From contig DATIKU010000013.1 of NCBI GenBank assembly GCA_035477215.1, positions 1-37,426 on the forward strand: DNA of 37,426 nucleotides. The letters run 5' to 3'. This stretch comes from Spirochaetota bacterium (GTDB taxonomy: Bacteria > Spirochaetota > UBA4802 > UBA5368). The first letter of the stretch is position 1. Each line of letters begins with the position of its first letter. Made by a program: the position numbers and the translations under genes. A model generated the notes under the pieces. The model did not search any database. It was not told the origin of the DNA and was given only the letters and a program-made list of their open reading frames with translations. Below are positions 1,227 to 34,945 of this stretch, piece by piece.

Positions 1227-1239
1227 AGGGGCATTCCGA

Positions 1240-2907
1240 ATGGGCGCATCGGCGAATACTCCATATCCGGTCATGCACTGCGACGTGCTCGTTATCGGTG
1301 GCGGTAGCGCGGGCGCGATGGCGGCCATCCGCGCCAGGGAGCTCGATCCCTCGTGCAAGGTCGTGGTGCTCGAGAAGGGCGACATGAAGTATTCGGGCTG
1401 CATCGCCCGGGGAATGGACGCGCTGAACATCGTGGCCGTTCCCGGCGTTTCCACACCCGAGCTCTATGTCGAGGCAAACCGTATGGCCTGCGAAGGCATC
1501 ATGGACGAACCGCCGAATTACGAGATGGCACGGCGCAGCTGGGACCTCATGAAAAAGCTCGAGGCCTGGGGCGTGTGCTTTCCCGTTGACGACAACGGCG
1601 CCTACGAAGTGCTCCAGGTGCATCCGAAGGGGCGCTTCTGTGTGACGATGAAGGAGCCCGAGCTTAAAACGATGCTCGCGGCGCGGGCGAAGACGCTGGG
1701 AGTGCGTGTCGTGAACCGCTCGATGGCGGTGGAGTTGATTGTCGAAGATGGACGCGTTACCGGCGCGGTGGCCATGAACGTGCGGACCGGCGAGATATTC
1801 GTCGTCTCCGCCGGCGCGGTAATTCTCTGCGCGGGGGGTACGGCGCGTTTCGGGCTTCCGAACAACGGCTACCTTTACGGCGTGTACGATTATCCCGGAA
1901 ATACCGGGGATGGTTACTGTCTCGCGTACCGCTCGGGCGCGGAGCTCGGCGGTTTCGAATACACACTTATTTATTATATAGTAAAGGACATCAACGCGCC
2001 GCTTCTCTACATCACCCTCACCAGGGGCGCGAAGCTCCTGAACGCCTTTGGCTTCGACAAAAGCAGTGAGCACCCATCGATCAAATCGATGCTGGTGGAC
2101 CACCATCGCGAGGGGAGCGGCCCCATGCGGATCGTCATGAGCCACCTTCCGGAGGAGCGCATCCGCGGCATAGAGGAGATCCTTTTTACGACCGAGCGCC
2201 CGGTGCAGGAGCGTTTTTACCGGGGCAGGGGCGTGGATTTCCGCACGGGCGAGATCGAGCTGTGGCCGACCGAATGCTTTCTCTGCGGCGGGCACGGGCT
2301 GACGGGCGTTCGGGTGAACGAGCGCGCCGAGACCTCCGTGCCCGGTCTTTACGCCGCGGGCGACACCTCGCTTGTCGCGCGTGGGCATTTAAGCGGCGCC
2401 TTCGTCTTCGGGGAGATCGCCGCGGAGAACGCGCTGGAATTCGCCCGAAAGACCGGCAGGGGAACGCCCGATTTCTCCACGGCCGAGAGGGTGAACACGC
2501 ACCGCGCACGACGCCTCTCGCAGTCCGCGAACAAAATTCCGATCGAGGAATTCGAGTACAAGGTGCGCCGCATCATCAACGATTACATCGTGCCGCCCAA
2601 GAACGAATACAAGCTTGACCGGGCCCTCTGGTGGATGGACCGCTTCCGCGCGGAGCTTTCCGACGTCGTACGCGTGAGCACGGTCCACGACCTCTTCAAG
2701 TCGTTCGAGATAGAGAACATCATTCAATGCGCCGCCATGAGCGCGCACGCGTCGAAGGCGCGAAAGGAGAGCCGCTGGGGCATGTGGCATTTCCGCACGG
2801 ATTTTCCCGAGCGAAACGACGATGACTGGATGAAGCACATCGTCCTTTGCATGGGCGATGCCCCCGAGGACGTGAGGGTCGTCGAAAAGAATATAATCCG
2901 GATGTGA
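1240..2907 (+). CDS. AprA-like FAD-dependent oxidoreductase (fumarate reductase/APS reductase flavoprotein family)
   Basis: The 555-residue protein opens with a dinucleotide-binding motif, VIGGGSAGAMAA, then YSGCIARGMDALN, which parallels the 'SGAVAQG..AIN' segment of adenylylsulfate reductase alpha subunits. A second FAD contact, VPGLYAAGD, lies about two thirds along, and a basic helical C-terminal domain follows as in AprA and SdhA. It lacks the long capping insertions expected of a true dissimilatory AprA, and no aprB, sat or qmo genes are near, so sulfate reduction is unlikely. AAGGGG sits just before the ATG. The stop codon shares a base with the next gene's start, so the two are probably co-translated and may form one enzyme complex. 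The substrate is unknown. Confidence 0.85.
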   Translation: MGASANTPYPVMHCDVLVIGGGSAGAMAAIRARELDPSCKVVVLEKGDMKYSGCIARGMDALNIVAVPGVSTPELYVEANRMACEGIMDEPPNYEMARRSWDLMKKLEAWGVCFPVDDNGAYEVLQVHPKGRFCVTMKEPELKTMLAARAKTLGVRVVNRSMAVELIVEDGRVTGAVAMNVRTGEIFVVSAGAVILCAGGTARFGLPNNGYLYGVYDYPGNTGDGYCLAYRSGAELGGFEYTLIYYIVKDINAPLLYITLTRGAKLLNAFGFDKSSEHPSIKSMLVDHHREGSGPMRIVMSHLPEERIRGIEEILFTTERPVQERFYRGRGVDFRTGEIELWPTECFLCGGHGLTGVRVNERAETSVPGLYAAGDTSLVARGHLSGAFVFGEIAAENALEFARKTGRGTPDFSTAERVNTHRARRLSQSANKIPIEEFEYKVRRIINDYIVPPKNEYKLDRALWWMDRFRAELSDVVRVSTVHDLFKSFEIENIIQCAAMSAHASKARKESRWGMWHFRTDFPERNDDDWMKHIVLCMGDAPEDVRVVEKNIIRM

Positions 2908-4508
2908 TGACAGGCATGAAACACGGGATGGCCGGTAATCTGCTCGAGGCGCTCAGCGACAACATCGTGGTCGATCGCGACAAATGCATGGGATGCGGCG
3001 TATGCGTCGAGCGATGTCCGATGGACAATCTGCGGCTTAAAAGCGCGCCGTGCACGGCGGCCTGTCCGCTCGGTGTGAACGCGCAGGGCTATGTGCGGCT
3101 CATCGCGCTCGGCGATGAGGAAGAAGCGTACCGGATATTAAAAGAGACGCTTCCTTTCCCGGGAATTCTGGGCAGGATCTGTTCGAGGCCGTGCGAAATG
3201 GCCTGCGCGCATAATGAACATGCAAGCCCCCGGATCGCCATCAGGGCGCTCAAGCGTTACCTTGCCGACCGGTTCGCCGATCACGCCGAACCCGCCACGT
3301 TTTCGTCTCCATCCGGTAAGAGCGTGGCGATAATCGGTTCGGGACCGGCGGGACTGATGGCGGCGCACGACCTTCGACTGCACGGTCACGAGGTGGTCGT
3401 GCTCGAGGCCGAAAGCGCCCCCGGCGGCATGCTCCGCTGGGCGATCCCCGTGTTCAGACTGCCGCGCGAGGTGCTCGAAAAAGAAATCTCCCGGTTGACT
3501 GAAATGGGAGTGCGGTTCGGACTCGGCGAACGGATCGACGCGGAGGGACGCACGCGACTGCTCGATGAATTCGACGCGGTGCTCGTCGCGTCCGGAGGCG
3601 GGCCTATTCGCCGTCTCGGGGTCCCCGGGGAGGGCCTCTCCGGCGTCCGCCATGCGCTTTCATTTTTACGTGCGGCTCGTACGGGATCGCTTCCCGGCGT
3701 CGGCGAAAGGGCGGTCGTGATCGGGGGCGGGAACGCCGCCCTCGACGCCGCGCAGACGGCGCTGCGCTGTGGTGCGAAGGAGGTCTCGATCGTATGCCTG
3801 GAGGCCCGCTGCGAAATGCCGGCGTTTCCGTGGGCGCTCGACGAAGCGCTCTCCGAAGGGGTCCGGCTTGTGGACGCGTGGGGGCCGATACGTTTTATCG
3901 GAGAGGAAGGAAAGCTGACCGGCATAGTGCTTCAGCGCTGTACGGGGCTATTCGACGATACCGGCGACTTCTCGCCGCGCATGGATGCCTGCCAGACGAT
4001 GACCTTCGAGGCGGACACGGTGATAATCGCCGCGGGACAGGAAATGAATGATATGAACATTGGCGGCGGGGTCGATCCGCTGACGCTCCAGGTGAACGGC
4101 TCGTCCCTGTTTATAGCGGGAGACGCGGCGACCGGCCCGTCCTCGGTGGTGCATGCTATGGCGTCGGGCCGCCGGGCCGCGGAGTCGATCCATCGCCTGC
4201 TTGCCGGGGAACCGCTGGGCCTCGGGCGCACGGTGCCCACGGACGAAGGTGTCGACGCTCCGGTGCGCCCGCCCACCCGGATCGATACCAATGCAAGGCG
4301 CCCCCGGATGCGTTCGTTTAAGGGGAAGGGTGATTGCGGTGAGGTCGAATCGGCTTTCGACGCGGACATGGCGCGCGCCGAGGCGTCGCGCTGCCTTTCG
4401 TGCGGCGTGGCGTTCGGGAGATACCGCACCTGCTGGTTCTGCCTTCCCTGCGAGATCGAGTGTCCGCAAAAGGCGATCAATGTGGAGATACCGTATCTGC
4501 TGCGCTGA
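2907..4508 (+). CDS. Fe-S/FAD NAD(P)H oxidoreductase, GltD-like
   Basis: About 533 residues from the ATG at 2907, which overlaps the previous stop by one base; an alternative start is 2916. Domains in order: one [4Fe-4S] ferredoxin-like motif (CMGCGVCVERCP), a Fer4_20/dihydropyrimidine dehydrogenase domain II segment (CTAACPLGVNAQGY; CSRPCEMAC), an FAD fold (VAIIGSGPAGLMAA), an NAD(P)H fold (VVIGGGNAALDAAQ), and a C-terminal cysteine-rich tail (CLSCG, CWFCLPCEIECP) that could hold another cluster. The glutamate synthase small subunit has the same core. No gltB-like subunit is next to it, so glutamate synthesis is unlikely. I infer that it passes electrons between NAD(P)H or ferredoxin and the AprA-like flavoprotein. 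Confidence 0.85.
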   Translation: MTGMKHGMAGNLLEALSDNIVVDRDKCMGCGVCVERCPMDNLRLKSAPCTAACPLGVNAQGYVRLIALGDEEEAYRILKETLPFPGILGRICSRPCEMACAHNEHASPRIAIRALKRYLADRFADHAEPATFSSPSGKSVAIIGSGPAGLMAAHDLRLHGHEVVVLEAESAPGGMLRWAIPVFRLPREVLEKEISRLTEMGVRFGLGERIDAEGRTRLLDEFDAVLVASGGGPIRRLGVPGEGLSGVRHALSFLRAARTGSLPGVGERAVVIGGGNAALDAAQTALRCGAKEVSIVCLEARCEMPAFPWALDEALSEGVRLVDAWGPIRFIGEEGKLTGIVLQRCTGLFDDTGDFSPRMDACQTMTFEADTVIIAAGQEMNDMNIGGGVDPLTLQVNGSSLFIAGDAATGPSSVVHAMASGRRAAESIHRLLAGEPLGLGRTVPTDEGVDAPVRPPTRIDTNARRPRMRSFKGKGDCGEVESAFDADMARAEASRCLSCGVAFGRYRTCWFCLPCEIECPQKAINVEIPYLLR

Positions 4509-4564
4509 AATATGGTACGCGCATTGATGCTCTATCGTATGATTCAGTCTAAAAGGAGACGGTC

Positions 4565-6259
4565 ATGGTACAGCCAATAATCGAAGCGGCGGTCGACACC
4601 CTCATCGACAGCGGAGTGGAATATACCTTCGGCGTGCCCGGCGGCGGCGCGCTTTTCCTGTACGGTCCGCTGTATGAAAAACGGGACCGGATCACCAGCA
4701 TCCTCGCGCGCCAGGAGGGGGCGGCGGCCTGCATGGCCGACGCGTACGGCCGGATTACGGGCAAACCCGCGGCGCTGATCGCGCAGGGGGCCTGGGCGGG
4801 CTCGAACGCGGCTTTCGGCATACTCGAGGCATACATGGCCGGTTCGCCGATGGTCATCATCGCCGACACCAGCGATTACGGCGGCCTTGCGCAATACGGG
4901 CCCTGGCAGAACGGGACCGGGGAATACGGGGGATTCGATCTTCCGGCCATGATGCGCTCCATGACAAAGTATACGACCGTGGCAACTACCCCCGACGAGC
5001 TTCTGCACGGAATCCAGCTTGCCGCGCGCCATTCGGTCACCGGAAGGCCCGGCCCGGCCTGTGTGCTCGCGCGCATGAACCTGTTCGGCATGAGCGTGGA
5101 CATGGAAAAAACGACACCGCGCCTGTATCCGGCCTCGCTGCGGGCCCGTGCGGGCGCACCGTGCCTCGGTGAAGAGGACGCGCACCGTATCGCGGCGATG
5201 CTTGCCGGGGCCGCGTGCCCGGTCATGATAGTGGGGCGGGGTGTGCACTCCTCGAAGGCATACGATGAGGTGCGCGCCATCGCACAGTTGCTTGCCATGC
5301 CGGTCGCGACGAGCTACATGGGAAAGAGCGCGATCGCCGAAACGCACGATCTGGCCCTGGGCACCATGGGAGGGATAGGCCAGGCCGCGGCCAACGAGTA
5401 TATCTCGAAGGCCGATTGCATCCTTGCCGTGGGAACCGGCCTCTCGCCGGAGAACACGCGCATGCTCGCGCAGGGCTTCATCGACCCCGAAAGACAAAAA
5501 TTAATCCATATTGATATAGAAGCGCTGAACGCGGGCTGGACGTATCCCGTGGCGATCGCCGCGGCCTCGGACGCGAAGACCGGGCTTGCCAGGATTACCG
5601 GTGTTTTACGAAGCATGGAGCCCTCGTTCGACCGGAGCGCGCGGCTTGCGGCCATCGGCGAGGCGAAAAAGCGCACCTGCTTCTTCGCCTGCGACGCGTA
5701 CTGCTCGGACGCCGCGCCCATAGCGCCGGAGCGCGTGGTGAAGGAACTCAACGACGCAGCCGACGAAAATACCGTCATCTGTCTCGATGCCGGCAATAAC
5801 CGGCAGTGGTTCGCCAGGCACTTCATGTCGAAGGCGCCGGGGCAGGTCCAAGCGCCGGGCGGCGCCGGGGGTGTGGGCTGGGCCCCGCCGGCCGCGCTCG
5901 CGGTGCAGATGCTCCTGTGCGATAAAAAGGTCGTAGGGGTGTGCGGCGATGGCGGCATGGTCATGATGCTGCACTGTCTCGAGACCGCCGCGCAGTACCG
6001 CCTTCCGGTCACCTACGTGGTGCTGAACAACTCCGTGCTCGGCAACATCCGCGATTTCCAGGGCCAGGAATGCCGCTTCTGCACCGAATACCAGACGCCG
6101 GACCTCGCCGCGCACGCCCGGGCCTCCGGGCTTCGCGCCTTCAAGGTGACCGATCCCGCAAAGATCTCCGGGGCGCTTCGCGAGGCGCTGGATTGCGGTG
6201 AACCTTCGTTGGTCGATATTATCACCGCGCCCGAGGCCCATTTCAAACTGATGTGCTGA
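4565..6259 (+). CDS. Thiamine diphosphate-dependent enzyme (acetolactate synthase-like superfamily)
   Basis: The 564-residue protein has the three-domain layout of the acetolactate synthase/benzoylformate decarboxylase superfamily. The catalytic glutamate is E51 in ARQEGAAACMADAYGR. The cofactor motif runs from GDG at 461-463 to NN at 488-489. The central domain holds the usual non-catalytic Rossmann-like fold (around VMIVGRGVHSSKAYDE). AAGGAG precedes the ATG. Enzymes of this family decarboxylate 2-oxo acids or join or cleave carbon-carbon bonds; members include acetolactate synthase, sulfoacetaldehyde acetyltransferase and oxalyl-CoA decarboxylase. There is no small regulatory subunit nearby, so a role in branched-chain amino acid synthesis is unlikely. 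The substrate is unassigned. It follows the oxidoreductase gene by 56 bases in the same operon. Confidence 0.88.
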   Translation: MVQPIIEAAVDTLIDSGVEYTFGVPGGGALFLYGPLYEKRDRITSILARQEGAAACMADAYGRITGKPAALIAQGAWAGSNAAFGILEAYMAGSPMVIIADTSDYGGLAQYGPWQNGTGEYGGFDLPAMMRSMTKYTTVATTPDELLHGIQLAARHSVTGRPGPACVLARMNLFGMSVDMEKTTPRLYPASLRARAGAPCLGEEDAHRIAAMLAGAACPVMIVGRGVHSSKAYDEVRAIAQLLAMPVATSYMGKSAIAETHDLALGTMGGIGQAAANEYISKADCILAVGTGLSPENTRMLAQGFIDPERQKLIHIDIEALNAGWTYPVAIAAASDAKTGLARITGVLRSMEPSFDRSARLAAIGEAKKRTCFFACDAYCSDAAPIAPERVVKELNDAADENTVICLDAGNNRQWFARHFMSKAPGQVQAPGGAGGVGWAPPAALAVQMLLCDKKVVGVCGDGGMVMMLHCLETAAQYRLPVTYVVLNNSVLGNIRDFQGQECRFCTEYQTPDLAAHARASGLRAFKVTDPAKISGALREALDCGEPSLVDIITAPEAHFKLMC

Positions 6260-6342
6260 CAGGATCAGCCCCCGGGCGATCGTCTCATGCCGGTTTTTAC
6301 CGCGAAGCCCGGATACGTAAATACACGGCAAGGAGAGGAAGC

Positions 6343-7518
6343 ATGAAACTCGTGATACTTTCGCTGTTCCTGCTTGTATGTCCCGCCCTGATTATCCATC
6401 TGTGCCGGAGGTGGTCCGCGCTCGAAAAGCTCGGCCCGGCTCTTTTATGCTACGGTCTGGGAATGCTCATCGCAAATATAGGGGTGCTTCCGGAGGGCTC
6501 GGGACCGGTCCAGACCATGTTCATGAATATCAGCGTTCCGCTTGCGCTCCCGTTGCTGCTGTTCTCGCTCGATCTCAAACGATGGTCGAAACTCGCCGGA
6601 CGCGCGTTCCTCTCGTTCGCGCTGGTGGTGGTATCGGTGCTCGTGGCGACCACGTTGTCCTATTTCTTCTATCATGATCGCGTGGAGGAGTCGTGGAAGG
6701 TCGCCGGCATGCTCATCGGCGTGTACACGGGAGGCAGCATCAATCTAAACGCCATCGGCCTCGCGCTCAAGGCGAAGGAGCACGTGCTCGTTCTCACCAA
6801 CACGGCCGACATGCTGGTGTGCACCCCGTATTTCCTATTCATTCTCTCCTACGCGCAGAGGGTGCTGGGTAAAATCCTTCCTCCGTTCCGCTATCCGGAA
6901 AAAGGCGGTGAGACCTCGCAGACGGTCGGTGACTGTGCCGGGAGCGGCATTAAGGATTTCAATGATTACTCGGGAATCTTCAGGCCGGCCGTGGCGCTTC
7001 CGCTTGCGGGCGCAACGCTCGCGTCGATCGCCATCTTCGGGATATCGTATGCCGTTTACGGTTTCGTACCGGTGGAATTCAACATGGCGGCGCTGATGAT
7101 CAGCATTACCACGCTCGGGCTGCTCGGTTCGTTTGTTCCGAAGATCAGGGCCATCCCGATGACGTTTCAGTTCGGGCAGTACATCATCATGATTTTCTGT
7201 CTCGTCGTCGGCTCCCTGGCGGACCTCGGCCAGGTGGTGATGGGCGCCCCGACGATATTCATATTCACCGCGATCGTGGTGTACGGCTCCATGCTGCTGC
7301 ATGTGGTGCTCGCGGCGATTTTCCGCGTGGACGCGGACACCATGATCATCACCTCGGTGGCGGCGGTATTCTCGCCGCCCTTCGTGCCGGTGGTGGCCGC
7401 CGCTTTGAAAAATAAGGACGTCATCATCTCCGGCATCGCCACCGGCATACTCGGCTGGGTGATCGGCAATTACCTGGGGATATCGTACGCCTATCTGCTC
7501 AGGGGGCTGTTCGGCTGA
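6343..7518 (+). CDS. DUF819 (YjcL-like) integral membrane protein
   Basis: About 391 residues with 10 or more hydrophobic segments. It has the features I associate with DUF819: LPLLLFSLDLKRW after the second helix pair and AGMLIGVYTGGSINLNAIG in the middle. I chose the ATG at 6343, which has AGGAGAGG just upstream; the frame opens earlier at 6253, but that extension is hydrophilic. Function is not established for the family; transport or export of an organic acid is a reasonable guess. It closes the operon that starts with the GntR-type regulator, and it faces the next gene tail to tail with a gap of six bases. Confidence 0.85.
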   Translation: MKLVILSLFLLVCPALIIHLCRRWSALEKLGPALLCYGLGMLIANIGVLPEGSGPVQTMFMNISVPLALPLLLFSLDLKRWSKLAGRAFLSFALVVVSVLVATTLSYFFYHDRVEESWKVAGMLIGVYTGGSINLNAIGLALKAKEHVLVLTNTADMLVCTPYFLFILSYAQRVLGKILPPFRYPEKGGETSQTVGDCAGSGIKDFNDYSGIFRPAVALPLAGATLASIAIFGISYAVYGFVPVEFNMAALMISITTLGLLGSFVPKIRAIPMTFQFGQYIIMIFCLVVGSLADLGQVVMGAPTIFIFTAIVVYGSMLLHVVLAAIFRVDADTMIITSVAAVFSPPFVPVVAAALKNKDVIISGIATGILGWVIGNYLGISYAYLLRGLFG

Positions 7519-7524: not shown

Positions 7525-9627
7525 CTATTTTTTTCGGCCGGGAGCTTTTTTCCCCGCGTCTTTTTTTCCAGAGTCTTGCCCTGTCTCTCCGGTTGCGGGT
7601 GGATCGGGGATTTCACTGATGACGCCGAAGACCCTGTTCGTGGCCCGGTTGTATTCGGCCAGGGAATGGATTGTGAGTATGGCGCCGTCCGTGGCCCGTC
7701 GTATTTTAAAAGTCACATCGTATTTTTCGTTGCGATTGACCAGGCCGGCGAGTGCGTCGTCGAGCATGGCACGATATTCCGGAAGCGGGAGAATCTGAAT
7801 GTCGGCGATCGTCAGCTTGCCGTCCCCAAATCCGTAGATACGCCGGGACGCGGGGGATACGGTGGCGGACCCCTGCGTCAGGTCGAGTTCCCAGTAGCCG
7901 AGCCCCGCCACGCGTAAAGCCCGTTCCAACAGGCGCTGATTATCTTTTAACTCATCCTGCGCTCTTCGTATGTCGGTTATATCGGTGAAGGTTGCGAACA
8001 CACGGTAAGGCCGATGTTCGCCTTCCGTAAACTGGGGAACCGCGTTCACCGAGATCCACCGGTGAGTTTCTTCGATGGAGTGGTGAAAACCCATTATAAA
8101 ATTTTCGACCGGTTCCCCGGTTCGCATCGCCTCCCTGTCGGGGTACTCCTCTCCGCGAAGGCCGGTGCCGTCCTCGCGGATGGCCCGCCGCCGCAGATCA
8201 ATGGAAGTAAAACTCATCAACTGGTCCATGCTGAGTCCCAACAGGCGCGCGGCGGCGGGATTCGCGTCGATTATCGCGCCCGACGCGTCGTGATAAATGA
8301 CACCCTGGGCCATGGTTTCGAAGAGCAGACGGAATTTTTTCTCCGATTCGCGCAGCTTGCTTTCGAACAACTTTCTTTCCGTAACGTCATTGAACAGCAC
8401 GGCAAACTGCCCTTTTTCCGGACTGAAGGCGGTCACCTCGAAATGCCGTCTGACCCCGCCGTGATAGTTTTCGAAGCTGACGGGCTCCATGGTAAGCGCG
8501 ACGGCGCCGTAGCGGTCGATCCATTCGCGCTCCGTTCCCGGAAGGACCTCGAGCACGGATTTGCCGGTGATGTCGGCCGCCCTGAGGCCGGTAAGCCGCT
8601 CGAACGCGGGATTGACGCGCAGAAACCGGTAATCCACGGGAACGCCCTTCTCGTCGCAGATGATCTCGTGCAGGGCGAAGCCGTTGAGCATCGATTCGAA
8701 GAGCATGCGGTAGTCGTTTTCACTGCGGGAGAGGGTTTCGAGCGTTTTATGAAGCTCTTCGTTGACCACCTCGAACTCTTCATTCGCGGCTTCAAGCTCC
8801 TCCATCGCCGCCTGGAGTTCCTCGTTAGCGGCGGTCAGTTCCTGGTTGGCGCGCAGCAGGGCCTCTTCGGCCTTTTTACTCTCGGTGATGTCTTCGCCGA
8901 TACTGCTCGTCGCGTACGGCGAGCCGTTCATAGCGTAAAGAGCGGTGTTGTTCCACCGGACCAGCCGCGATTCGCCGGATTTAGTCAGCAGCGTCCCCTC
9001 ATAATGCAAAGGAACCTTGTCGAGCTCGAGCATCTTTTGATGTGCCCGCCTATTTTCGTCGGCTGATTTACCTTGTTCGAAAATGCCGAACCAGTTGCCG
9101 CCTATCAATTCATCCTGGGTATAGCCGGTCAGATTGAGCAGGAAATCATTGCAGAAAAGGATTGTACCATTCGCGTCGAGTTGAACCGCGATAAGGCGCG
9201 CGTTTGCGAGCGCGTCGCGAAACCGTCGCTCGCTCTCCCGGAGTTTTATTACGGTTCGGTGTTTGACCCGCGCGGATTCGATGTTCGAATACAGGTCGCG
9301 CTCGTGTATGGGCTTGTTGAGATAGGCGTACGGCTGGGTGTCGCTCGCCCGGTCGACGGTCGCCTTGTCGGCGTTTGCCGTAATGTAGATGATCGGGATA
9401 TCGTTGGCCCTGCGTATCGCACGGGCGGCCTCGATACCGTCCATGCTCCCGGCAAGCAGGATATCCATCAGGATGATGTCCGGTTTGAGCGAGGCGGCCT
9501 TTTCGACGGCAGCCTCTCCCGTGGCGGCAATGTCCGCGACCTCGTAGCCGAGTTCTTTGAGAATGCCCTTGACGTCAAGGGCGATGATGGTTTCGTCTTC
9601 GACAATCAAAACGCGGATCTTTCTCAT
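7525..9627 (-). CDS. Response-regulator receiver protein with four PAS domains and no output domain
   Basis: About 700 residues from the ATG at 9627, with GAGG upstream; the longer frame from 9669 lacks this site. Residues 1-125 are a CheY-like receiver (VLIVEDE, phosphoacceptor Asp in DIILMDIL, and the conserved Lys in YLNKP). Four PAS-like segments follow, with a coiled coil of repeated AANEELQAAMEELEAANEE type after the first. The last PAS is followed only by a lysine-rich tail. No histidine kinase, GGDEF, EAL or DNA-binding domain is visible, although such chains usually end in a kinase. It may act as a phosphorylated adaptor or partner for the PAS-HisKA_2 kinase at 14428. It is divergent from the methyltransferase genes and shares their upstream region. 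Confidence 0.88.
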   Translation of the reverse strand: MRKIRVLIVEDETIIALDVKGILKELGYEVADIAATGEAAVEKAASLKPDIILMDILLAGSMDGIEAARAIRRANDIPIIYITANADKATVDRASDTQPYAYLNKPIHERDLYSNIESARVKHRTVIKLRESERRFRDALANARLIAVQLDANGTILFCNDFLLNLTGYTQDELIGGNWFGIFEQGKSADENRRAHQKMLELDKVPLHYEGTLLTKSGESRLVRWNNTALYAMNGSPYATSSIGEDITESKKAEEALLRANQELTAANEELQAAMEELEAANEEFEVVNEELHKTLETLSRSENDYRMLFESMLNGFALHEIICDEKGVPVDYRFLRVNPAFERLTGLRAADITGKSVLEVLPGTEREWIDRYGAVALTMEPVSFENYHGGVRRHFEVTAFSPEKGQFAVLFNDVTERKLFESKLRESEKKFRLLFETMAQGVIYHDASGAIIDANPAAARLLGLSMDQLMSFTSIDLRRRAIREDGTGLRGEEYPDREAMRTGEPVENFIMGFHHSIEETHRWISVNAVPQFTEGEHRPYRVFATFTDITDIRRAQDELKDNQRLLERALRVAGLGYWELDLTQGSATVSPASRRIYGFGDGKLTIADIQILPLPEYRAMLDDALAGLVNRNEKYDVTFKIRRATDGAILTIHSLAEYNRATNRVFGVISEIPDPPATGETGQDSGKKDAGKKAPGRKK

Positions 9628-9716
9628 GTTTCCTCGCCGGGATGATACTATGTAAGGAATATAACGCAATGAGCGATGAATGCAAGCAGAATTACCGGAA
9701 AGCCCCGGGGTTTTAT

Positions 9717-9830
9717 GGGGTGAGAATTATAATAAGGGATTAAATTACAACAACTTTTGCCTTTTGAGATCGCTGCGTCGCCGCGCTCCTCGCGATGATG
9801 CTCTGTTCAGCCCGGATTTTAATTCACGCC
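9717..9830 (+). repeat. Dispersed palindromic element, copy 2 (shortened)
   Basis: It holds the core GCCTTTTGAGATCGCTGCGTCG at 9759-9780, the ends GGGGTGAGAATT (9717-9728) and AATTCACGCC (9821-9830), and the intervening CGCGCTCCTCGCGATGA. Compared with copy 1 it has lost most of the left half, including the TGGCAATCTC segment. It lies between two divergent genes. Confidence 0.75.
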
Positions 9831-9836
9831 GGTTTT

Positions 9837-9888
9837 AAATGTCAAATAATGACTTTTGGGTGCCGCCAGTAAATCATTATTGACATTT
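9837..9888. promoter_or_regulatory. Long inverted repeat overlapping a -35 box, likely operator of the methyltransferase genes
   Basis: The left arm AAATGTCAAATAATGA (9837-9852) and right arm TCATTATTGACATTT (9874-9888) match as inverted repeats apart from one extra A. A 21-base spacer separates them. The right arm contains TTGACA at 9880-9885, a good -35, although the -10 near 9902-9908 is weak. Each arm also holds a smaller palindrome (GTCA...TGAC and TCA...TGA). This looks like a two-site regulator target for the + strand genes and possibly the divergent receiver-PAS gene. The binding protein is unknown. The region 9628-9961 otherwise holds only repeat copy 2. Confidence 0.6.
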
Positions 9889-9961
9889 TACTCGTTTTGT
9901 CATTCACTTGATGAAAACATTTTACGCAAACTGCACCCGCTTTGCGCCACGGAGACCGACC

Positions 9962-11425
9962 ATGAAGAGCAGCCGTTTCAAGGTTTTGAGCGACGCCGAA
10001 ATAAAAACCATACAGCAGCACACCCTCGAGATCCTCGAGACCGTCGGCATCAAGGTCGAGGTGAAGAAGATGCGGCGGATGCTCGCCGACCTCGGCTGCA
10101 GGGTGGATGAGGCGAAAAAAATCGTGTATTACAAGCCCTCGGTCGTCGAATCGCTTCTGAAAAAAGCCCCGCGCGAATATATCCTCTGCGGCGCCGATTC
10201 GAGTAAACAATGGCCGATCAATCCGGATACCCGGGTCTTCGGCGGTCTGGGAACGGCCATCAACTTTTATGATCTTGAGACGGGCGACTACCGCCCCACC
10301 ACCCTGAAAGACCAGACCGACCATATCATCCTGTTCGATGGGCTCGACAATATCGTCTCCAACCAGATGGATATCTGGCCCAACGATATCCCCATGCAGT
10401 GCATCCACGTGGAGGCCATCCGCTCGTGGGCGAAGCATTGCACCAAGTCCTTTGGAATGGGCGCGTACGGCGTCCTCGCGACGAAAGACATGATGGAGAT
10501 GACCTCGATCGTGATGGGCGGAAAGGACAACATCAGGGACCGCCACCCGTTCATCACCATCGTGAGCATCCAGAGCCCGCTCTCCACGGCGCAGATACAA
10601 CTCGAGGGCCTCATGATTCTCGCCGAATGGGGCCAACCGGCCCTGGTGTCGCCCGAGGCGATGGCGGGTACCACCGCACCGGTAACGCTCGCGGGGCTTC
10701 TTCTTCAGCAGAACGCCGAGGTGGTCGCGCATATCGTTATGGCGCAGGCGGTAAATCCCGGCACGCCGGTCATGTACGGCACCGTGTCGACGATAGCCGA
10801 GATGCGCCGCGGGACGGTGGCGCTGGGCTCGATCGAGACGGGCATGATAAGCGCGGGAGCGGCGCAACTCGCCCATTCCTACGGCATTCCGTGCAGGGCG
10901 GTGGCGGGCGCAACCGAATCCAAGACCATTGACATTCAGTGCGGGGTCGAGCGTTTCCAGTCCATGCTGCTCGCCGCGCTCGGCGGGGCGAACTACATCA
11001 CCTGCGTGGGGACGCTCGAATCGACGACGGCCGGGGCGCACGAGCTCGCCGTAATAGACAACGAGCTTATCGGGATGGTCGAGCGCGCCATCCGCGGGGT
11101 GGAGGTGAGCGACATCTCGCTCGCCGTGGACGTACTGCGGCGCGTCGGTCCGGACGGCAACTATCTGATGGAGGAGCACACCCAGCGCCATTTCCGCGGC
11201 GAGCACTTCATCCCGAAACTTGCCGACCGAGACAAGCGGGACATCTGGGAAAAGGCGGGCAAAAAAGAGATGCTCGAGCGCTCGCGCGACGAGGCGAAGA
11301 AGATACTGTCGAAGCACAGAGAGCGCGAGCTCGATCCGGGGGTAGCGAAAGCGCTGGACGATTACGTGGCGATGGTCGCCGGGCGCGGCCTTGACGAATT
11401 CCTTGCGGCTGAATGGGAGGCCTGA
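9962..11425 (+). CDS. MttB-family (COG5598) corrinoid-dependent methyltransferase, non-pyrrolysine type
   Basis: About 487 residues from the ATG at 9962, which has GGAG upstream; the frame also opens at a TTG at 9908. The sequence matches the trimethylamine methyltransferase superfamily: an N-terminal segment beginning LSDAEIKTIQQHTLEILE, a long TIM-barrel body with glycine-rich strands, and a C-terminal arginine/lysine-rich helix. The frame is uninterrupted, so there is no amber codon for pyrrolysine. Non-pyrrolysine members include methyltransferases for glycine betaine, proline betaine, carnitine and gamma-butyrobetaine. It should move a methyl group from a quaternary amine or similar compound to the Co(I) corrinoid protein encoded next. 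The actual substrate cannot be read from sequence. Confidence 0.88.
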   Translation: MKSSRFKVLSDAEIKTIQQHTLEILETVGIKVEVKKMRRMLADLGCRVDEAKKIVYYKPSVVESLLKKAPREYILCGADSSKQWPINPDTRVFGGLGTAINFYDLETGDYRPTTLKDQTDHIILFDGLDNIVSNQMDIWPNDIPMQCIHVEAIRSWAKHCTKSFGMGAYGVLATKDMMEMTSIVMGGKDNIRDRHPFITIVSIQSPLSTAQIQLEGLMILAEWGQPALVSPEAMAGTTAPVTLAGLLLQQNAEVVAHIVMAQAVNPGTPVMYGTVSTIAEMRRGTVALGSIETGMISAGAAQLAHSYGIPCRAVAGATESKTIDIQCGVERFQSMLLAALGGANYITCVGTLESTTAGAHELAVIDNELIGMVERAIRGVEVSDISLAVDVLRRVGPDGNYLMEEHTQRHFRGEHFIPKLADRDKRDIWEKAGKKEMLERSRDEAKKILSKHRERELDPGVAKALDDYVAMVAGRGLDEFLAAEWEA

Positions 11426-11426
11426 C

Positions 11427-12068
11427 ATGTCCGCTGAACTACTGAATGAACTGCGAACGGCAATAGTGGAGATGCGTTTCGACGACACCGAGGGCCTGGC
11501 CAGGCGTGCGCTCGAGGCGGGAGTAAAGGCGGTTGACGTGCTTAACGGCGCCTGTCTTCCGGCGCTCGACGAGGTGGGCGTCCTTTTCCGTGAAGGGGAC
11601 TACTTCCTGCCCGACGTGCTCATGTCGGTGAGGGCCTATAACAGCGCCTACCGGCTGCTGCTGCCCGGGCTGAAGGAGGGCGCGTACGAATCGCGGGGCA
11701 GGGTGATGCTCGGCACCGTGGAGGGAGACATCCACGAGATCGGCAAGAACATCCTCCATGCCTTACTTCAGGGTAACGGTTTCGACGTGGTGGACCTGGG
11801 GGTCAACGTAAGCCCGGCGGTCTTTTTGGAAAAGGCGAAGGAGCACAAACCCGACATAATCGGCATGTCGGCGCTCCTCACCACCACGATGCCGGTCATG
11901 AAGGAAACGATCGAGCTCTTCGAGAAGGAGGGGTTAAAGGATTCGTTCCGCTTCATCGTCGGCGGCTCGCCGCTCAACCAGCGTTTCTCGGACGAGATCG
12001 GCGCCGACGGTTACGGCGAGGACGCCCAGTCGGGCGTGGAGCTCGTGCGGCGGCTGCTCGCCTCCTGA
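11427..12068 (+). CDS. Corrinoid (methyl-carrier) protein, MtbC/MtaC family
   Basis: The 213-residue protein has an N-terminal four-helix cap (about 1-88) and a C-terminal Rossmann-like cobalamin domain. The motif GDIHEIGKN places D101, H103 and G106, with H103 the expected lower axial cobalt ligand. SALLTTT and GGSPLN fit the other cobalamin contacts. GGAGG precedes the ATG, one base after the methyltransferase stop, so the pair is translationally linked. It should carry the methyl group from the MttB-family protein to an acceptor enzyme. A longer frame from 11391 overlaps the previous gene and is less likely. Confidence 0.93.
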   Translation: MSAELLNELRTAIVEMRFDDTEGLARRALEAGVKAVDVLNGACLPALDEVGVLFREGDYFLPDVLMSVRAYNSAYRLLLPGLKEGAYESRGRVMLGTVEGDIHEIGKNILHALLQGNGFDVVDLGVNVSPAVFLEKAKEHKPDIIGMSALLTTTMPVMKETIELFEKEGLKDSFRFIVGGSPLNQRFSDEIGADGYGEDAQSGVELVRRLLAS

Positions 12069-12188
12069 TGTCAGTGAACCGTGCATCGGCCCGGCGCGTT
12101 CATCATGCGGGATTTTATTCAGTACCCACGGGGCTGCGACTTCCGCGCGGTGCGCGTGGCAGCCATCTTCGACCGGACGGAGGAGTGT

Positions 12189-13541
12189 ATGAATAACGGC
12201 GGACCGCTGCGGCAGCCTGCGGGCAAACCTCTCACCATGGGCGAAATCATACTCTATAATCTGGCGGGCCTCACGTTCAACCTGTTCGATACCGTCCTCT
12301 ACGCGTGGCTGCCGTATTTCTACATTCCGCCGGCGGGGTCGAACCACACGCAGTACATTCCGCTCGCGGCGCTCGGCATTATCCTTGCCGGGGGGCGCAT
12401 ACTCGACGCGGTCACCGACCCGCTTATGGGCTACCTCAGCGACCACACCCGCTCGCGGTGGGGACGGCGAAAGCCCTACATCTTCATCTCGAATCCCATA
12501 CTCTTTCTCGCGTTCATACTCGTCTGGACGCCCCCGGTGCAGGGAGAGAGCCTGGCCAACGCGATTTTCCTCGGGGCCGTGCTCTTTTTCTATTATATTT
12601 CGTATACGGGGATGCTCATTCCGTGGTTCGCCGTTCTGCCCGAGATGAGCGCGAAGAACGATGAGCGCGTAAAAATCGCCTCGGTCGGGGTGGCAATCGG
12701 GGTGCTCGGAGCGCTTATCGGCGGCGGCCTCTCCGGGCCGCTCATGGGCGCGTTCGGCGTGCTCAGGATGGCGGTCATGCTCGGTATCATAGGGCTTGTC
12801 GCCGGACAGCTCTCGCTTCTGGGCATACACGAGCGTCACCGGCCGCATCCCTACGAGGAGACCCCGCCGTTTTTCACCGTGATGCGCGAGATGTTCGCCG
12901 ACCGGCAGGTGCTTTCGTTCGCGGTCATGATCATGTTCGTACAGCTCACCTATCAGCTCATGCTGATGAACGTACCCTATCTGACCACGCTCATCCTGGG
13001 GCGAAGCGAGGGGGACGCCTCGATACTCATGGGAGAGGTGATACTCTCGACCGCGGCCTCGGTGCCGCTCTGGTACCGGCTGCTCGGAAAATATCCCAAG
13101 CGTTCGCTCTTCAGGGCCATCATCGTATGGATGGCGGCGGGCTTCGGCCTGAGCTTCTTCATCGGAAGGCTGCCGTGGTTTTCGCCGTTCGTGCAGGCGA
13201 TGATCGTTTTTCCGCTTGTTGCGATTCCGATCGGCGGAATGTTCATAACGGTGCTCGGCCTAATCGCCGACATAACCGACTACGACGAGCTGAAATCAGG
13301 GCGCAGACGAGAGGCGATGTATTACGGCATTTACGGTATCGTGCGGAAAACGGGCTGGGCGCTGTGCTCGCTCATCCTGGTGGGGGTCTATTCGGCGTTC
13401 GGGTACAGTACCGAAAATCCAACCGGCGTGCGCGTGGTCTGGCTGGTCTGCGGACTTTCATGTCTCGTGGGGCTTGTCGCCTTCATGCCATTTCGCCTGG
13501 GCGACAGTAAAGACGAAACGAAAGCGATTATGGGGCTGTAA
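12189..13541 (+). CDS. MFS transporter, GPH (MelB-like) family
   Basis: About 450 residues with 12 likely membrane segments, starting at the ATG at 12189 with GGAGG upstream. The cytoplasmic loop after helix 2 reads DAVTDPLMGYLSDHTRSRWG, followed by RRKPY; this is the hallmark of the glycoside-pentoside-hexuronide:cation symporter group. Relatives occur with sugars, but many near catabolic methyltransferase genes have no proven sugar substrate. Its place between the corrinoid protein and the homocysteine methyltransferase suggests it imports the methylated compound used by this locus. The substrate is inferred from position only. Confidence 0.85.
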   Translation: MNNGGPLRQPAGKPLTMGEIILYNLAGLTFNLFDTVLYAWLPYFYIPPAGSNHTQYIPLAALGIILAGGRILDAVTDPLMGYLSDHTRSRWGRRKPYIFISNPILFLAFILVWTPPVQGESLANAIFLGAVLFFYYISYTGMLIPWFAVLPEMSAKNDERVKIASVGVAIGVLGALIGGGLSGPLMGAFGVLRMAVMLGIIGLVAGQLSLLGIHERHRPHPYEETPPFFTVMREMFADRQVLSFAVMIMFVQLTYQLMLMNVPYLTTLILGRSEGDASILMGEVILSTAASVPLWYRLLGKYPKRSLFRAIIVWMAAGFGLSFFIGRLPWFSPFVQAMIVFPLVAIPIGGMFITVLGLIADITDYDELKSGRRREAMYYGIYGIVRKTGWALCSLILVGVYSAFGYSTENPTGVRVVWLVCGLSCLVGLVAFMPFRLGDSKDETKAIMGL

Positions 13542-13565
13542 TATACGGGAAAGCGAGGAAACGCC

Positions 13566-14444
13566 ATGCACGCGCTGATAGAGTCGTTGTTGAAAGAATC
13601 CCCGGTCGTCACCGACGGTTCGTGGGGCACACAGCTTCAGAAGAGTGGGCTCGCGCGCGGCGAATGTCCGGACACATGGAACTTGTCAAATCCCGACAGG
13701 GTGCGGGAGGTGGCGGCACTGTATGTAAATGCCGGCAGCCGGATAATCCTCACCAATACCTTCGGCGCGAACCGGTTCGTGCTGGGAAAGTTCGGGATGG
13801 CCGAAAAGGCGTCCGAGATAAACGGGGCCGGGGTCAAAATCTCGAAGGAAGCGGCCGCCGGACGCGCCCTTGTATTCGCGTCGATCGGGCCGAGCGGTAA
13901 AATGCTCGTGTCGGGCGATGTCACCGAAGCCGCGCTCGCCGAGGCATTCGCGGAGCAGGCGGCGGCGCTCGCTGAAGCCGGGGCGGACGGACTGGTGGTC
14001 GAGACGATGATGGATATCAACGAGGCCGTAATCGCCGTACGCGCGGCGAAGACCACCGGCTTGCCGGTAATCGCCAGCATGGTCTATGATTCGGGTAAGT
14101 CCAAAGACCGCACCATGATGGGGAACACCACGGAACAGTGCGCCGAGGCGCTTGCCGCCGCGGGCGCCGAAGGCATCGGCGCCAACTGCGGACAGGGCAT
14201 AGAGGGATTCGTCCCCATTTGTAAAAAGCTCTACGCCGCGACGGGCCTCCCGCTCTGGATGAAGCCGAACGCCGGACTTCCGGAGATGGTGAACGGGGAA
14301 GTAGTGTACCGGACGGGCGCGGAAGAGTTCGCGCGGCATGTGCCGGCGCTCGTTGAAAACGGCGCCCGCTTTATCGGTGGGTGCTGCGGCACCGGCGTGG
14401 AATTCATAATGGAGATCAGGCACGCGGTTGAAGGAAAAAAGTAG
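13566..14444 (+). CDS. Zinc-dependent homocysteine S-methyltransferase family protein
   Basis: The 292-residue protein matches the homocysteine methyltransferase barrel as in BhmT, MmuM and the N-terminal module of MetH. The N-terminal TDGSWGTQLQ and LTNTFGANR are family signatures. The expected zinc ligands are C208 (GANCGQG) and the pair C273-C274 (IGGCCGT). The start is the ATG at 13566, 24 bases after the transporter. It lacks cobalamin and folate domains, so it resembles a free MetH N-terminal module. With a corrinoid protein upstream, it could accept the methyl group and make methionine. It could instead demethylate another donor. Confidence 0.88.
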   Translation: MHALIESLLKESPVVTDGSWGTQLQKSGLARGECPDTWNLSNPDRVREVAALYVNAGSRIILTNTFGANRFVLGKFGMAEKASEINGAGVKISKEAAAGRALVFASIGPSGKMLVSGDVTEAALAEAFAEQAAALAEAGADGLVVETMMDINEAVIAVRAAKTTGLPVIASMVYDSGKSKDRTMMGNTTEQCAEALAAAGAEGIGANCGQGIEGFVPICKKLYAATGLPLWMKPNAGLPEMVNGEVVYRTGAEEFARHVPALVENGARFIGGCCGTGVEFIMEIRHAVEGKK

Positions 14445-15939
14445 GTTCGACGAAAGCGGTGAGCGCTATCGTCTCATCTTTCGCAACGCTCCGCTTGGAA
14501 TCGTTCATTTCGATGACGCCGGCGTTGTAACCGATTGCAACGACGTATTTGTGAATATCATCGGCTCGTCACGAAACGCGCTGGTCGGGCTAAATATGCT
14601 CGGCCTTCCCGATGAACGGATCGTCGCTGTGGTGAAAAAGGTCCTTGTCGGAGAGATGGGCCTTTTCGAGGGCGATTACCACTCGGTGACCGGCGGCAAG
14701 ACAAGCACGGTCCGCCTTATCTTTTCGCCGATAAAGGACCCGGACGGACGGCTGACAGGCGGATTCGGTATCGTGGAAGACATCACGGAACGGGTGCGCG
14801 CGCGCGAGGCCCTCGAAGTTCAAAACGCTCAGTTTGAACGGGCCAACGAGAAGTTGCAGATCACGCTGGAAGAGCTGGAGCGAATGAACGAGGAGCTCAT
14901 ACTCGCCCAGGACGAGCTGATCAGGGCCAACGAGGGGCTGTATGAAAACGAACAGAAATACCGCGCGCTGTTCGAGAATTCGCCGGACGCGATATTTTTT
15001 ATGGACGAGCGGTTCATCGACTGCAACAACCAGGCATGCCGAATTTTCGCCGTTTCCCGCGATGAGCTTATCGGGAGATTTCCATACGAATTCTCGCCGG
15101 AGTTGCAGCCCGACGGGCGCCTGTCCCGTGACGCCGTCGAGGAATACGTCGAGGCGGCGCTTTCCGGAACGCCCCTGAGTTTTCAGTGGCGGCATGTGCG
15201 CGGCGACGGAATGCAGATCGACACCGAGGTCTCGCTCGCCCGGATGCTAATTCGGGGGGAAAAACGGCTGACCGCAACGGTACGGGACGTCACCGGGAAC
15301 GTCGAGGCGAAACGACGTATTGAAAAATCGCTCGCCGAAAAGGAGATTCTCCTTAAAGAGGTACACCACCGGGTAAAAAACAATCTGCAGGTGATCTCGA
15401 GCCTGCTGAGCCTGCAGTCCCGGTTTGTTCGCGACCCCGTTGATCTCGCGATTTTCGCCGAAAGCCAGAACCGCGTGCGCAGCATGGCGCTCATCCACGA
15501 AAAGCTGTACCAGTCGGGGGACTTCTCCCGTATCGATTTTTCCGGCTATATCGAAAGCATGGTGGCCGAACTGCGCCGGTCATACGGGAATGTTGCCGGG
15601 CATGTCGCCTTCAGGATCGACGTGCAAAATGTTCACCTTTCAATCAAGAAGGCGATTCCCTGCGGACTCATCATCACCGAGCTGGTTTCCAATGCAATCA
15701 AATACGCTTTTCCGGCCGGCAGCAGTGGTGAGGTCAGGATAGCAATGCACTCGACAGGTCCGTTGACCGTCCTTGTCGTCGCCGACAATGGAGTCGGTTT
15801 TCCGCCCGGCCTCGACTGGCGAAAAGCCTCCACGCTTGGACTTCAGCTCGTAATAAGCCTTGCCAACCAAATTGGCGGTGCCGTCGAGTGTGAATTCGAA
15901 AACGGCACCTCGTTCCGGATCGAATTCCCGGGAAAATAG
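14428..15939 (+). CDS. PAS-PAS sensor histidine kinase, HisKA_2 type
   Basis: The 503-residue soluble protein has two PAS domains (about 10-125 and 168-300) joined by a coiled coil, then a HisKA_2 dimerisation segment with EVHHRVKNNLQ, where H314 is the probable phosphoacceptor. A HATPase domain follows, with ELVSNAIKYAF and DNGVGFP. There are no membrane segments, so it senses a cytoplasmic signal. The only plausible starts are non-ATG; I chose the TTG at 14428, which overlaps the end of the homocysteine methyltransferase gene by 17 bases and suggests coupled translation. No response regulator follows. The receiver-PAS protein at 7525-9627 is the closest candidate partner. Confidence 0.85.
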   Translation: MKEKSRFDESGERYRLIFRNAPLGIVHFDDAGVVTDCNDVFVNIIGSSRNALVGLNMLGLPDERIVAVVKKVLVGEMGLFEGDYHSVTGGKTSTVRLIFSPIKDPDGRLTGGFGIVEDITERVRAREALEVQNAQFERANEKLQITLEELERMNEELILAQDELIRANEGLYENEQKYRALFENSPDAIFFMDERFIDCNNQACRIFAVSRDELIGRFPYEFSPELQPDGRLSRDAVEEYVEAALSGTPLSFQWRHVRGDGMQIDTEVSLARMLIRGEKRLTATVRDVTGNVEAKRRIEKSLAEKEILLKEVHHRVKNNLQVISSLLSLQSRFVRDPVDLAIFAESQNRVRSMALIHEKLYQSGDFSRIDFSGYIESMVAELRRSYGNVAGHVAFRIDVQNVHLSIKKAIPCGLIITELVSNAIKYAFPAGSSGEVRIAMHSTGPLTVLVVADNGVGFPPGLDWRKASTLGLQLVISLANQIGGAVECEFENGTSFRIEFPGK

Positions 15940-17972: not shown

Positions 17973-18668
17973 ATGGACCTTATCGTAAACGGAATCAAGG
18001 AGGCCTTCCGCCTCATCGTCACGCTCGATGCCGAGGTGATGAGCGTGACGCTTCTGTCGCTTCAGATATCCGGCAGCGCCACCCTGATCAGCCTGGTCAT
18101 AGGAGTGAGTGCCGGAACAGCCGTCGCGCTCTCGGAGTTTCCCGGCAAACGACTGGTCGCGAGCGTCATCAACACCGGCATGGGGCTGCCCCCGGTGGTG
18201 GTGGGGCTGTTCGTCACGATTTTCATCTGGCGCAGCGGCCCGTTCGGATTTCTCGGCATACTGTACACGCCCGCGGCGATGGTGCTGGCACAGACGATCA
18301 TCGCCACTCCGATCATAACAGGAATCAGCTTCGCCGCCATCCAGCACCTTCCCGAAAAGCTCAGGCTGCAGATACTCGCCCTCGGGGCGACCCGCACGCA
18401 GATGGTTTGGATGCTCATGCGCGAGGCGCGGCTTCCGCTCCTCGCGGCGGTGATGGCCGGTTTCGGCGGCGTGATATCGGAGATCGGCGCGTCGATGATG
18501 GTGGGGGGCAATATAAAGGGATACACGCGGGTGCTCACCACCGCCACCGTGATGGAAACCAGCCGGGGCAATTTCGACATCGCCATCGCCCTTGGAATCA
18601 TACTGCTCATGCTCGCGTTCGCGATCAACTATATTCTCACCTCCATACAGCAGAAGGGCGGGCGATGA
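17973..18668 (+). CDS. tupB: ABC transporter permease, tungstate TupB-like
   Basis: The 231-residue protein has five or six membrane segments and a typical binding-protein-dependent permease loop, ALGATRTQMVWMLMREARLP. The segments GMGLPPVVVGLF and GAVISEIG-type text (here GGVISEIGASMMVGGNIKG) are close to TupB/WtpB-like oxyanion permeases. Its stop overlaps the ATPase start as ATGA. The proposed ATG at 17973 has no clear ribosome-binding site. Tungstate is favoured over molybdate on overall sequence, but sulfate or molybdate cannot be excluded. The binding protein TupA that normally precedes it is absent from the window. Confidence 0.75.
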   Translation: MDLIVNGIKEAFRLIVTLDAEVMSVTLLSLQISGSATLISLVIGVSAGTAVALSEFPGKRLVASVINTGMGLPPVVVGLFVTIFIWRSGPFGFLGILYTPAAMVLAQTIIATPIITGISFAAIQHLPEKLRLQILALGATRTQMVWMLMREARLPLLAAVMAGFGGVISEIGASMMVGGNIKGYTRVLTTATVMETSRGNFDIAIALGIILLMLAFAINYILTSIQQKGGR

Positions 18669-19762
18669 AGAGGCATGAATATCCCGTGCTCGAAGTGCGC
18701 GATCTGCGCGTCGTGCGCGGCGGCGCCGCCATCCTCGACGTGCCGGGGTTTACCCTCGCGGCCGGAGAGGTCGTCGCGGTGATCGGACCAAACGGCGCGG
18801 GGAAGACCACCCTGCTTTCGGCGGTTCTGGGCCTCCAGAAATCCTCCGGGGACGGCATGGTGGCGAGAGGCTCGCTGAGGTTTCCCGGGACGCCGCCCCA
18901 CGTTTATCGCCGCGGTTTTTCCATGGTGTTCCAGGATCCCCTGCTTTTCAACACCACGGTATATGATAACGTCGCCTCGGGCCTGAGGTTCCGCGGCGCC
19001 TCGAGGCGCGATATCGACCGTATCGTCTCGGGGCAGCTCGAACGCTTCGGGATCGCCTCCCTTCGCGGTCGAAAGGCCCGTTCGCTTTCGGGCGGAGAGG
19101 CCCGCCGCGTGAGCCTCGCACGCGCCTTCGCGACCGATCCGGAAATCCTTCTGCTTGACGAGCCCTTCGCCTCGCTCGACGCCCCCGCGCGCGAGTCCAT
19201 CCTCGAAGACCTTGAAAAAGCCCTGGCCGGCTCGCGCACGGCGGCACTGCTCGTCACCCACGACCGCGTAGAGGCGCTTCGTCTCGCCGATTCGATCATT
19301 GCGCTCGATAAGGGCAGGATCCTCCAGAGCGGCGCGACAATCGACGTACTGCGACGGCCGGCAAGCGAGTTCGTGGCCTCGTTCGCCGGAACCGAGACCG
19401 TGGTGGAGGGCCGTGTCGTGCGAAGCGGCGGCGGGATCGTTGTTGTTTCCGCCTCGGGCGTGGAAATCGAGGCCGCGGGCGAGGCGCACGGGGGGCAGCG
19501 GGTGGCGCTCTGCATCAGGCCCGAGAACATCGTCATTGCCACGGTGAATCGCGCCAGGACGAGCGCGCGCAATGCCTTCACCGGGCGCGTCGTGCGCCTG
19601 ATCCCGATGCCGCATTATCACAAGGTGGTTATCGATTGCGGATTTACCCTTGTGGCATATATCACCCATCATTCGATCGAAGAGATGGGGCTTTGCGAGG
19701 GCGGCCGGATTAACGCCTCGTTCAAGGCTACCGCGGTGCACCTGATTAAAAAGGAGCGCTGA
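18665..19762 (+). CDS. tupC: ABC transporter ATP-binding protein, TupC/ModC-like
   Basis: About 365 residues from the ATG at 18665; it overlaps the permease stop by four bases. Walker A is GPNGAGKTT, the signature is LSGGEARRVSLARA, Walker B is ILLLDEPFASLD and the switch histidine is in LLVTHD. The roughly 110 residues after the ATPase domain fit a regulatory TOBE-like oxyanion-binding region, as in ModC and the related tungstate ATPases. It powers the permease encoded just upstream. The longer frame from 18407 runs inside the permease gene and is not a real start. Confidence 0.85.
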   Translation: MKRHEYPVLEVRDLRVVRGGAAILDVPGFTLAAGEVVAVIGPNGAGKTTLLSAVLGLQKSSGDGMVARGSLRFPGTPPHVYRRGFSMVFQDPLLFNTTVYDNVASGLRFRGASRRDIDRIVSGQLERFGIASLRGRKARSLSGGEARRVSLARAFATDPEILLLDEPFASLDAPARESILEDLEKALAGSRTAALLVTHDRVEALRLADSIIALDKGRILQSGATIDVLRRPASEFVASFAGTETVVEGRVVRSGGGIVVVSASGVEIEAAGEAHGGQRVALCIRPENIVIATVNRARTSARNAFTGRVVRLIPMPHYHKVVIDCGFTLVAYITHHSIEEMGLCEGGRINASFKATAVHLIKKER

Positions 19763-34035: not shown

Positions 34036-34057
34036 TCGTAGCGGGAGGAGAGATGTC

Positions 34058-34924: not shown

Positions 34925-34945
34925 CAACCATTACCTGAGCGGTGT

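Follow-up and report, generated by a model that had tools for sequence, protein, structure and literature searches.

Where does an MttB-family methyltransferase deliver the methyl groups that it collects when the only acceptor candidate encoded beside it is a homocysteine methyltransferase? The question is raised by a locus in a Spirochaetota bacterium (assembly GCA_035477215.1), a draft genome of 3.57 Mb in 62 contigs that is 95% complete and whose nearest relatives are spirochaete metagenome-assembled genomes (MAGs). The window analyzed here is the entire contig DATIKU010000013.1 (C13; 37,426 bases), and linkage is visible only within it. Five forward-strand genes, separated by short gaps or overlapping, span positions 9962-15939 in the order MttB-family methyltransferase, corrinoid protein, GPH-type transporter, homocysteine methyltransferase (HMT, used throughout for the MetH-type homocysteine methyltransferase), and PAS/HisKA_2 kinase, each scoring well over its Pfam cut-off. 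Their presence, order, strand, and families agree with the initial annotation, which had proposed a split route from a methylated amine to methionine. Judging from the sequence, we consider it probable, at roughly 0.7, that three of the encoded proteins make up a folate-independent methyl:homocysteine methyltransferase and that a further one serves as its importer.

In the proposed route, the GPH carrier is presumed to import the methylated substrate, probably a quaternary amine, and the MttB enzyme, as its family suggests, would move one methyl group onto the corrinoid protein in its cob(I) state. Homocysteine bound to the zinc of the HMT would then accept the methyl group from the methylcob(III) corrinoid to yield methionine, a step to which the MetH-type fold and sequence, the zinc site, and the linkage point. 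The assembly would amount to a split methionine synthase whose methyl-folate (pterin) module has given way to an MttB subunit. Cob(II) formed by accident would be reduced by a RACo/RamA-like protein encoded on another contig (C44), which probably serves the MetH of the genome as well. The observations on which the route is built are the gene content and order, their conservation across genera and phyla, a second pairing of MttB with HMT, the lack of free-standing pterin methyltransferases, and the sequence motifs.

A comparison of gene order across genomes bore out a conserved pairing that lacks MtqA, the methyltransferase that would be expected to pass the methyl group to tetrahydrofolate: it is kept in ten genomes and in two unrelated MttB clades. 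When related loci were searched by tblastn with the window genes (57-96% identity), the MttB, corrinoid, GPH, and HMT genes were found in the same order and on the same strand in the window genome, in G024 (locus L025), G022 (L026), G019 (L036), G020 (L029/L037), and G027 (L038), and in a deltaproteobacterial MAG, G296 (L028). The arrangement is not due to chance, being found again in other genera and in another phylum. In the deltaproteobacterial MAG, the four module proteins remain close to their spirochaete counterparts, whereas in the tree its MetH branches away from the MetHs of the spirochaetes; this pattern suggests that the module moved as a unit.

The second clade comprises the MttBs of L044 and L045, from another family of the order, and of L035, from a Lokiarchaeota MAG, which are likewise linked to a corrinoid gene and an HMT gene and are only about 28% identical to the window MttB. 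In a tree of 72 MttBs they group with Chloroflexota sequences, far from the window clade, and a single clade of all HMT-linked MttBs was rejected (p-AU 6.8e-5); this result is compatible with the pairing having arisen twice, or once very early with later losses. In L044 and L045, the gene between those for MttB and the corrinoid protein scores 42.5 and 49.2 bits against PF02965, the activation domain of MetH (cut-off 25), its closest solved relative being 1j6r, a separate 214-residue chain named 'methionine synthase', so that this cluster holds every methionine synthase module but the folate one. The Lokiarchaeota locus (8382-11407) holds the only PF02574 protein found in its genome, between the corrinoid gene and the MttB gene, and this protein is a candidate for the methionine synthase of that MAG. 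Most HMT-linked genomes are MAGs, and L028 or L035 may be contig-level contamination; the pairing itself is secure given its recurrence across ten genomes. A broader statement, to which we give even odds, is that MttB enzymes were built at least twice (once in the window clade and once in that shared by the Lokiarchaeota MAG and the f4 spirochaetes) into a methionine synthase, replacing the folate module. The class that resulted, methylated-compound:corrinoid:homocysteine methyltransferases that make methionine with no need of methyl-folate, would span Spirochaetota, Asgard archaea, and a deltaproteobacterial lineage.

The initial annotation held that an MtqA-like gene elsewhere in the genome would speak against direct transfer to homocysteine, and none was found: the matches to PF00809 in the window genome are limited to dihydropteroate synthase (DHPS; C58) and the pterin domain of MetH (C8). 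Searches with PF00809, on which all of the pterin evidence is based (a custom pterin HMM built from one or two sequences was not relied on), found only DHPS and MetH, and no free-standing pterin methyltransferase, in all of the bacterial HMT-linked genomes; in the Lokiarchaeota MAG they matched a DHPS-like protein and, weakly, a 524-aa frame. Among 13 MttB-bearing spirochaete genomes that lack the HMT linkage, ten (G001, G048, G060, G071, G081, G085, G088, G094, G100, and G106) encode at least one free-standing pterin methyltransferase-like protein in frames of 265-326 aa. The MetH pterin domain, being the only non-DHPS pterin domain of the window genome, could act in trans, such that methyl groups pass from the corrinoid protein to tetrahydrofolate and the HMT serves an ordinary split or second methionine synthase; the pterin subunit MtgD of Ruegeria pomeroyi does work in both directions (PMC12478193). 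We regard this as unlikely, since the MetH pterin domain is fused to a corrinoid domain of its own and the module includes an HMT gene and never a pterin gene in ten genomes.

The identity of the HMT bears on whether it draws on a corrinoid protein at all. The cysteines C208, C273, and C274, which the initial annotation had singled out, are exact in the 292-aa protein, and their GANCG and GGCCGT motifs align with the homocysteine domain of Thermotoga maritima MetH. This MetH is also the best solved structure (154 bits), ahead of BHMT (64 bits) and of 5dml, a 'Homocysteine S-methyltransferase' (55 bits), so the relationship to MetH is closer than that to BHMT and the protein was not assigned to the latter. 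Matches to NCBIfam models were all under their cut-offs (PRK08645, 255 bits; PRK07534, 193 bits; PRK09485, 100 bits). The MttB-linked HMTs form a tree group of their own, distinct from the MetH of the same genomes. A stand-alone BHMT- or MmuM-like enzyme that takes its methyl group from a soluble donor, with no corrinoid protein, is quite unlikely: PF02574 does take in BHMT and MmuM, and PRK07534, whose cut-off is 338 bits, is named 'betaine--homocysteine', but the closest structures are the homocysteine domains of MetH, the Bhmt of Sinorhizobium has itself been reinterpreted as the split-MetH subunit MtgE (PMC12478193), and the HMT gene invariably adjoins the corrinoid gene or the carrier gene that follows it. 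An association of HMT with MttB by presence and absence was considered and set aside because genomes that lack MttB can encode stand-alone PF02574 proteins too, and the argument therefore rests on physical linkage and not on co-occurrence.

One further stand-alone corrinoid protein is encoded in the window genome, at 150.9 kb of contig C8, between two UroD-family proteins. The UroD protein at 8579-9664 of locus L011 matches the methylcobalamin:CoM and MtaA/CmuA subfamilies at 136 and 119 bits, both under the cut-offs, and together with its H-N-C motif these matches are what would commend it as the actual acceptor enzyme, acting on a thiol (coenzyme M or homocysteine) and leaving the HMT an accessory role. 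We consider this very improbable, since the protein sits in its own trio with a cognate corrinoid protein and is unlinked to MttB; the trio looks like a separate, second corrinoid methyltransferase system.

A gene for a Cys/Met pyridoxal-phosphate (PLP) enzyme lies divergently adjacent to MttB in G019, G020, and G027 and further upstream in L028. The enzyme is closest to methionine gamma-lyases (358-372 bits, under the curated cut-off). A classic methionine gamma-lyase was rejected, given the sub-threshold scores and a glycine in place of the cysteine of the solved enzyme's Y-G-C-T motif; it may be a homocysteine-forming sulfhydrylase instead, and either enzyme should handle methionine or its precursors. 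That the HMT methylates some other thiol and yields a product other than methionine, an idea left room by the fact that sequence cannot prove substrate residues and by the MetH already present in the genome, is hardly credible given the DG.WGT, ET..D, NC, and GGCCGT motifs common to the HMT and MetH domains and the occurrence, in four genomes, of the PLP gene close to the module.

The initial annotation was also correct that no corrinoid activase lies in the window, the single RACo/AcsV-like (RamA-like) gene of the genome being that on C44. The MetH of this genome has 806 aa and ends after the B12 domain, without an activation domain, and for this reason it too probably depends on RACo, a type of dependence that genetics has suggested for Desulfovibrio and Phaeobacter (PMC5764234).

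Several points weigh against direct transfer from the MttB corrinoid protein to homocysteine. The window genome also encodes a MetH that contains pterin and corrinoid domains of its own. Ordinary methionine synthesis therefore does not require the module, and methyl groups might in principle be exchanged between this MetH and the window corrinoid protein. The MtaA/MtbA-like methyltransferase on C8 could likewise serve that corrinoid protein in trans. With homocysteine as the only sink, flux would be limited by methionine use. RACo was not found in the deltaproteobacterial MAG or in G297, and the PLP neighbor is missing at the locus of the window itself. An MtqA overlooked in a draft that is 95% complete is possible, if unlikely.

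Among known systems, the closest to the direct route proposed here is MtgBCDE of Ruegeria pomeroyi DSS-3 (PNAS 2025; PMC12478193), in which the common corrinoid pool of three subunits links the demethylation of methylated amines to methionine. One corrinoid protein there serves both glycine betaine demethylation and methionine synthesis, loss of MtgD abolishes methionine synthesis and prevents growth on glycine betaine, and MetH is lacking in most of the genomes that encode MtgBCD (PMC12478193). The window resembles this system in its MttB-family enzyme, free corrinoid protein, and PF02574 subunit, here gathered in one cluster, and in an activase (RamA-like) encoded elsewhere; it differs in lacking the free pterin subunit MtgD, in having the HMT gene share an operon with those for MttB and a GPH carrier, and in retaining a fused MetH. 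The MtgB-MtgC-MtgA and MtpB-MtqC-MtqA systems of Desulfitobacterium and Eubacterium also pair an MttB-family enzyme with a cognate corrinoid protein, but they pass the methyl group to tetrahydrofolate through MtgA or MtqA, which are absent here, and the glycine betaine pocket residues differ in the window enzyme. The split methionine synthase of Phaeobacter inhibens (PMC5764234) shares with the window separate PF02574 and corrinoid proteins and a RamA-like (DUF4445) activase, whereas it has a separate PF00809 pterin protein in the place that MttB occupies here.

The core synthases MesA, MesB, and MesC are thought to methylate homocysteine directly from a methyl-corrinoid protein, free of folate; they are related to MetE and their donor is fed by MtrA or CoFeSP, whereas the window HMT is a MetH-type PF02574 protein whose donor would be fed by the MttB enzyme (PMC7857596). 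The methyl-folate module of MetH is neither linked to the window cluster nor free-standing in the genome, and MttB stands in its place. By its gene content, the module would work like a mix of MtgBCDE and the Mes synthases and is a member of neither as these are defined. Among the open-licence papers searched, none was found to describe an MttB-HMT operon lacking a pterin subunit. The proposal that MttB feeds methionine synthesis was thus upheld by the conserved pairing and the lack of an MtqA-type gene, while the link itself is not wholly new, as R. pomeroyi provides a precedent that includes a pterin subunit (PMC12478193).

The substrate, like the flow of methyl groups and the contacts between subunits, is predicted only in outline. 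The MttB is the sole one of the window genome, and its frame has no in-frame stop or amber codon, the pyrrolysine column being Ala or Thr depending on the alignment, so that its non-pyrrolysine assignment stands. Its open frame reaches back to a TTG at 9908; the ATG at 9962, the position given in the initial annotation, is the best-placed start, as the sequence shared by relatives begins there, after a GGAG-type site. The closest solved structures are those of glycine betaine methyltransferase (9yce/2qne, 272 bits), and the 72-row tree joins the enzyme to MtgB with an SH-aLRT of 89. Docking predicted the glycine betaine residues Y94, N199, R309, H345, and F/Y353 (PMC6855144). At these predicted positions, as read from alignment columns (chain numbering is offset by one), only R309 is kept and Y94, N199, H345, and F353 are replaced by G, S, T, and T; same-genus relatives carry identical letters at all five, and R309 is kept across the whole clade. 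With four of five predicted binding residues differing, glycine betaine was rejected as a substrate assigned through MtgB orthology.

The corrinoid protein is nearest to the methylamine/MtgC type in NCBIfam (182 bits for TIGR02370, under its curated cut-off of 215, and 177 bits, also under cut-off), its closest structures are 1y80 and MttC (7xcn_M), and the cobalamin motif DxHxxG is present as DIHEIG (D113-G118). The GPH gene lies between those for the corrinoid protein and the HMT in every locus of the window clade. In G027, a paralogous MttB (60% identity; L039, 9206-12143) has a GPH carrier of its own and no corrinoid or HMT genes, which suggests a carrier matched to the substrate and a shared methyl-handling core. 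Upstream of the module in L028 (520-5388) lie genes for an FCD-GntR regulator, a class V aminotransferase near aspartate-glyoxylate and AEP aminotransferases, an FAD_oxidored protein, and a second GPH carrier, which may hint at an amino-acid-like substrate.

If the route holds, MttB, a large and mostly uncharacterized family, would gain homocysteine as a third direct end point beside tetrahydrofolate and coenzyme M, and environmental methylated compounds could be turned into methionine and SAM without spending folate-bound carbon. The donor module of methionine synthase would be exchangeable, and a concrete three-protein reconstitution would become possible.

Table 1. Coordinates of the features of the MttB-HMT locus and of the second corrinoid system; positions are those of the window unless another contig is named.
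Feature	Position	Strand	Evidence
Conserved upstream element AAATCATTATTGACATTT, -35 like TTGACA/T, probably promoter or operator (predicted function)	9871..9888	+	Conservation in relatives
MttB-family (COG5598/PF06253) non-pyrrolysine corrinoid methyltransferase	9962..11425	+	PF06253, 331 bits, residues 17-488
Free-standing corrinoid protein, MttC/MtgC type	11427..12068	+	PF02607+PF02310, 64+99 bits; open frame from TTG 11391
GPH/MFS_2 transporter	12189..13541	+	PF13347, 215 bits; open frame from GTG 12081
HMT, MetH Hcy-domain type, predicted zinc ligands C208, C273, C274	13566..14444	+	PF02574 S-methyl_trans, 218 bits
PAS/HisKA_2 sensor kinase (HisKA_2+HATPase+PAS)	14428..15939	+	Pfam; overlaps HMT end
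UroD-corrinoid-UroD trio	C8:149.8-152.7 kb (L011 6791-9664)		One UroD MtaA/MtbA-like, H-N-C motif

The sequence AAATCATTATTGACWTTT also precedes MttB in L025, L026, and L027 and is conserved at this place in four species of the genus, and weaker variants containing TTGACT lie upstream of MttB in L036, L037, and L028; the element is probably a promoter element. An imperfect inverted copy precedes AAATCATTATTGACWTTT in the window (9845-9855 with 9871-9881). Control by a riboswitch was rejected, as Rfam matched nothing in the window or its relatives. The kinase gene also occurs in the same-genus loci L025 and L026, no match was found 3' of the HMT gene in L028, L036, or L038, and the kinase was set aside as a genus-level accessory and not a part of the module. 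Adjoining the kinase-bearing operon and kept in the genus is a reverse-strand gene (7525-9669) whose product has several PAS domains behind a response regulator receiver and no kinase or DNA-binding output.

Elsewhere in the window, a TonB-dependent receptor is encoded on the reverse strand (35068-37002; best NCBIfam match the vitamin B12 receptor TIGR01779, 117 bits, under cut-off). Genes for an ECF S-component-like protein (32116-32757) and for an ABC ATPase (34058-34756) lie nearby, and the region 32116-37002 forms a candidate set for cobamide uptake on the contig that also holds the module. An operon at 474-7518 encodes a UTRA-GntR regulator, a fumarate reductase-like flavoprotein, an FeS/NAD(P)H GltD-like protein, an acetolactate-synthase-like TPP enzyme, and a DUF819 membrane protein, and is partly kept upstream in L026 and L025. 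A TupB-like permease and a WtpC-like ATPase at 17973-19762 form a tungstate/molybdate-type ABC transporter.

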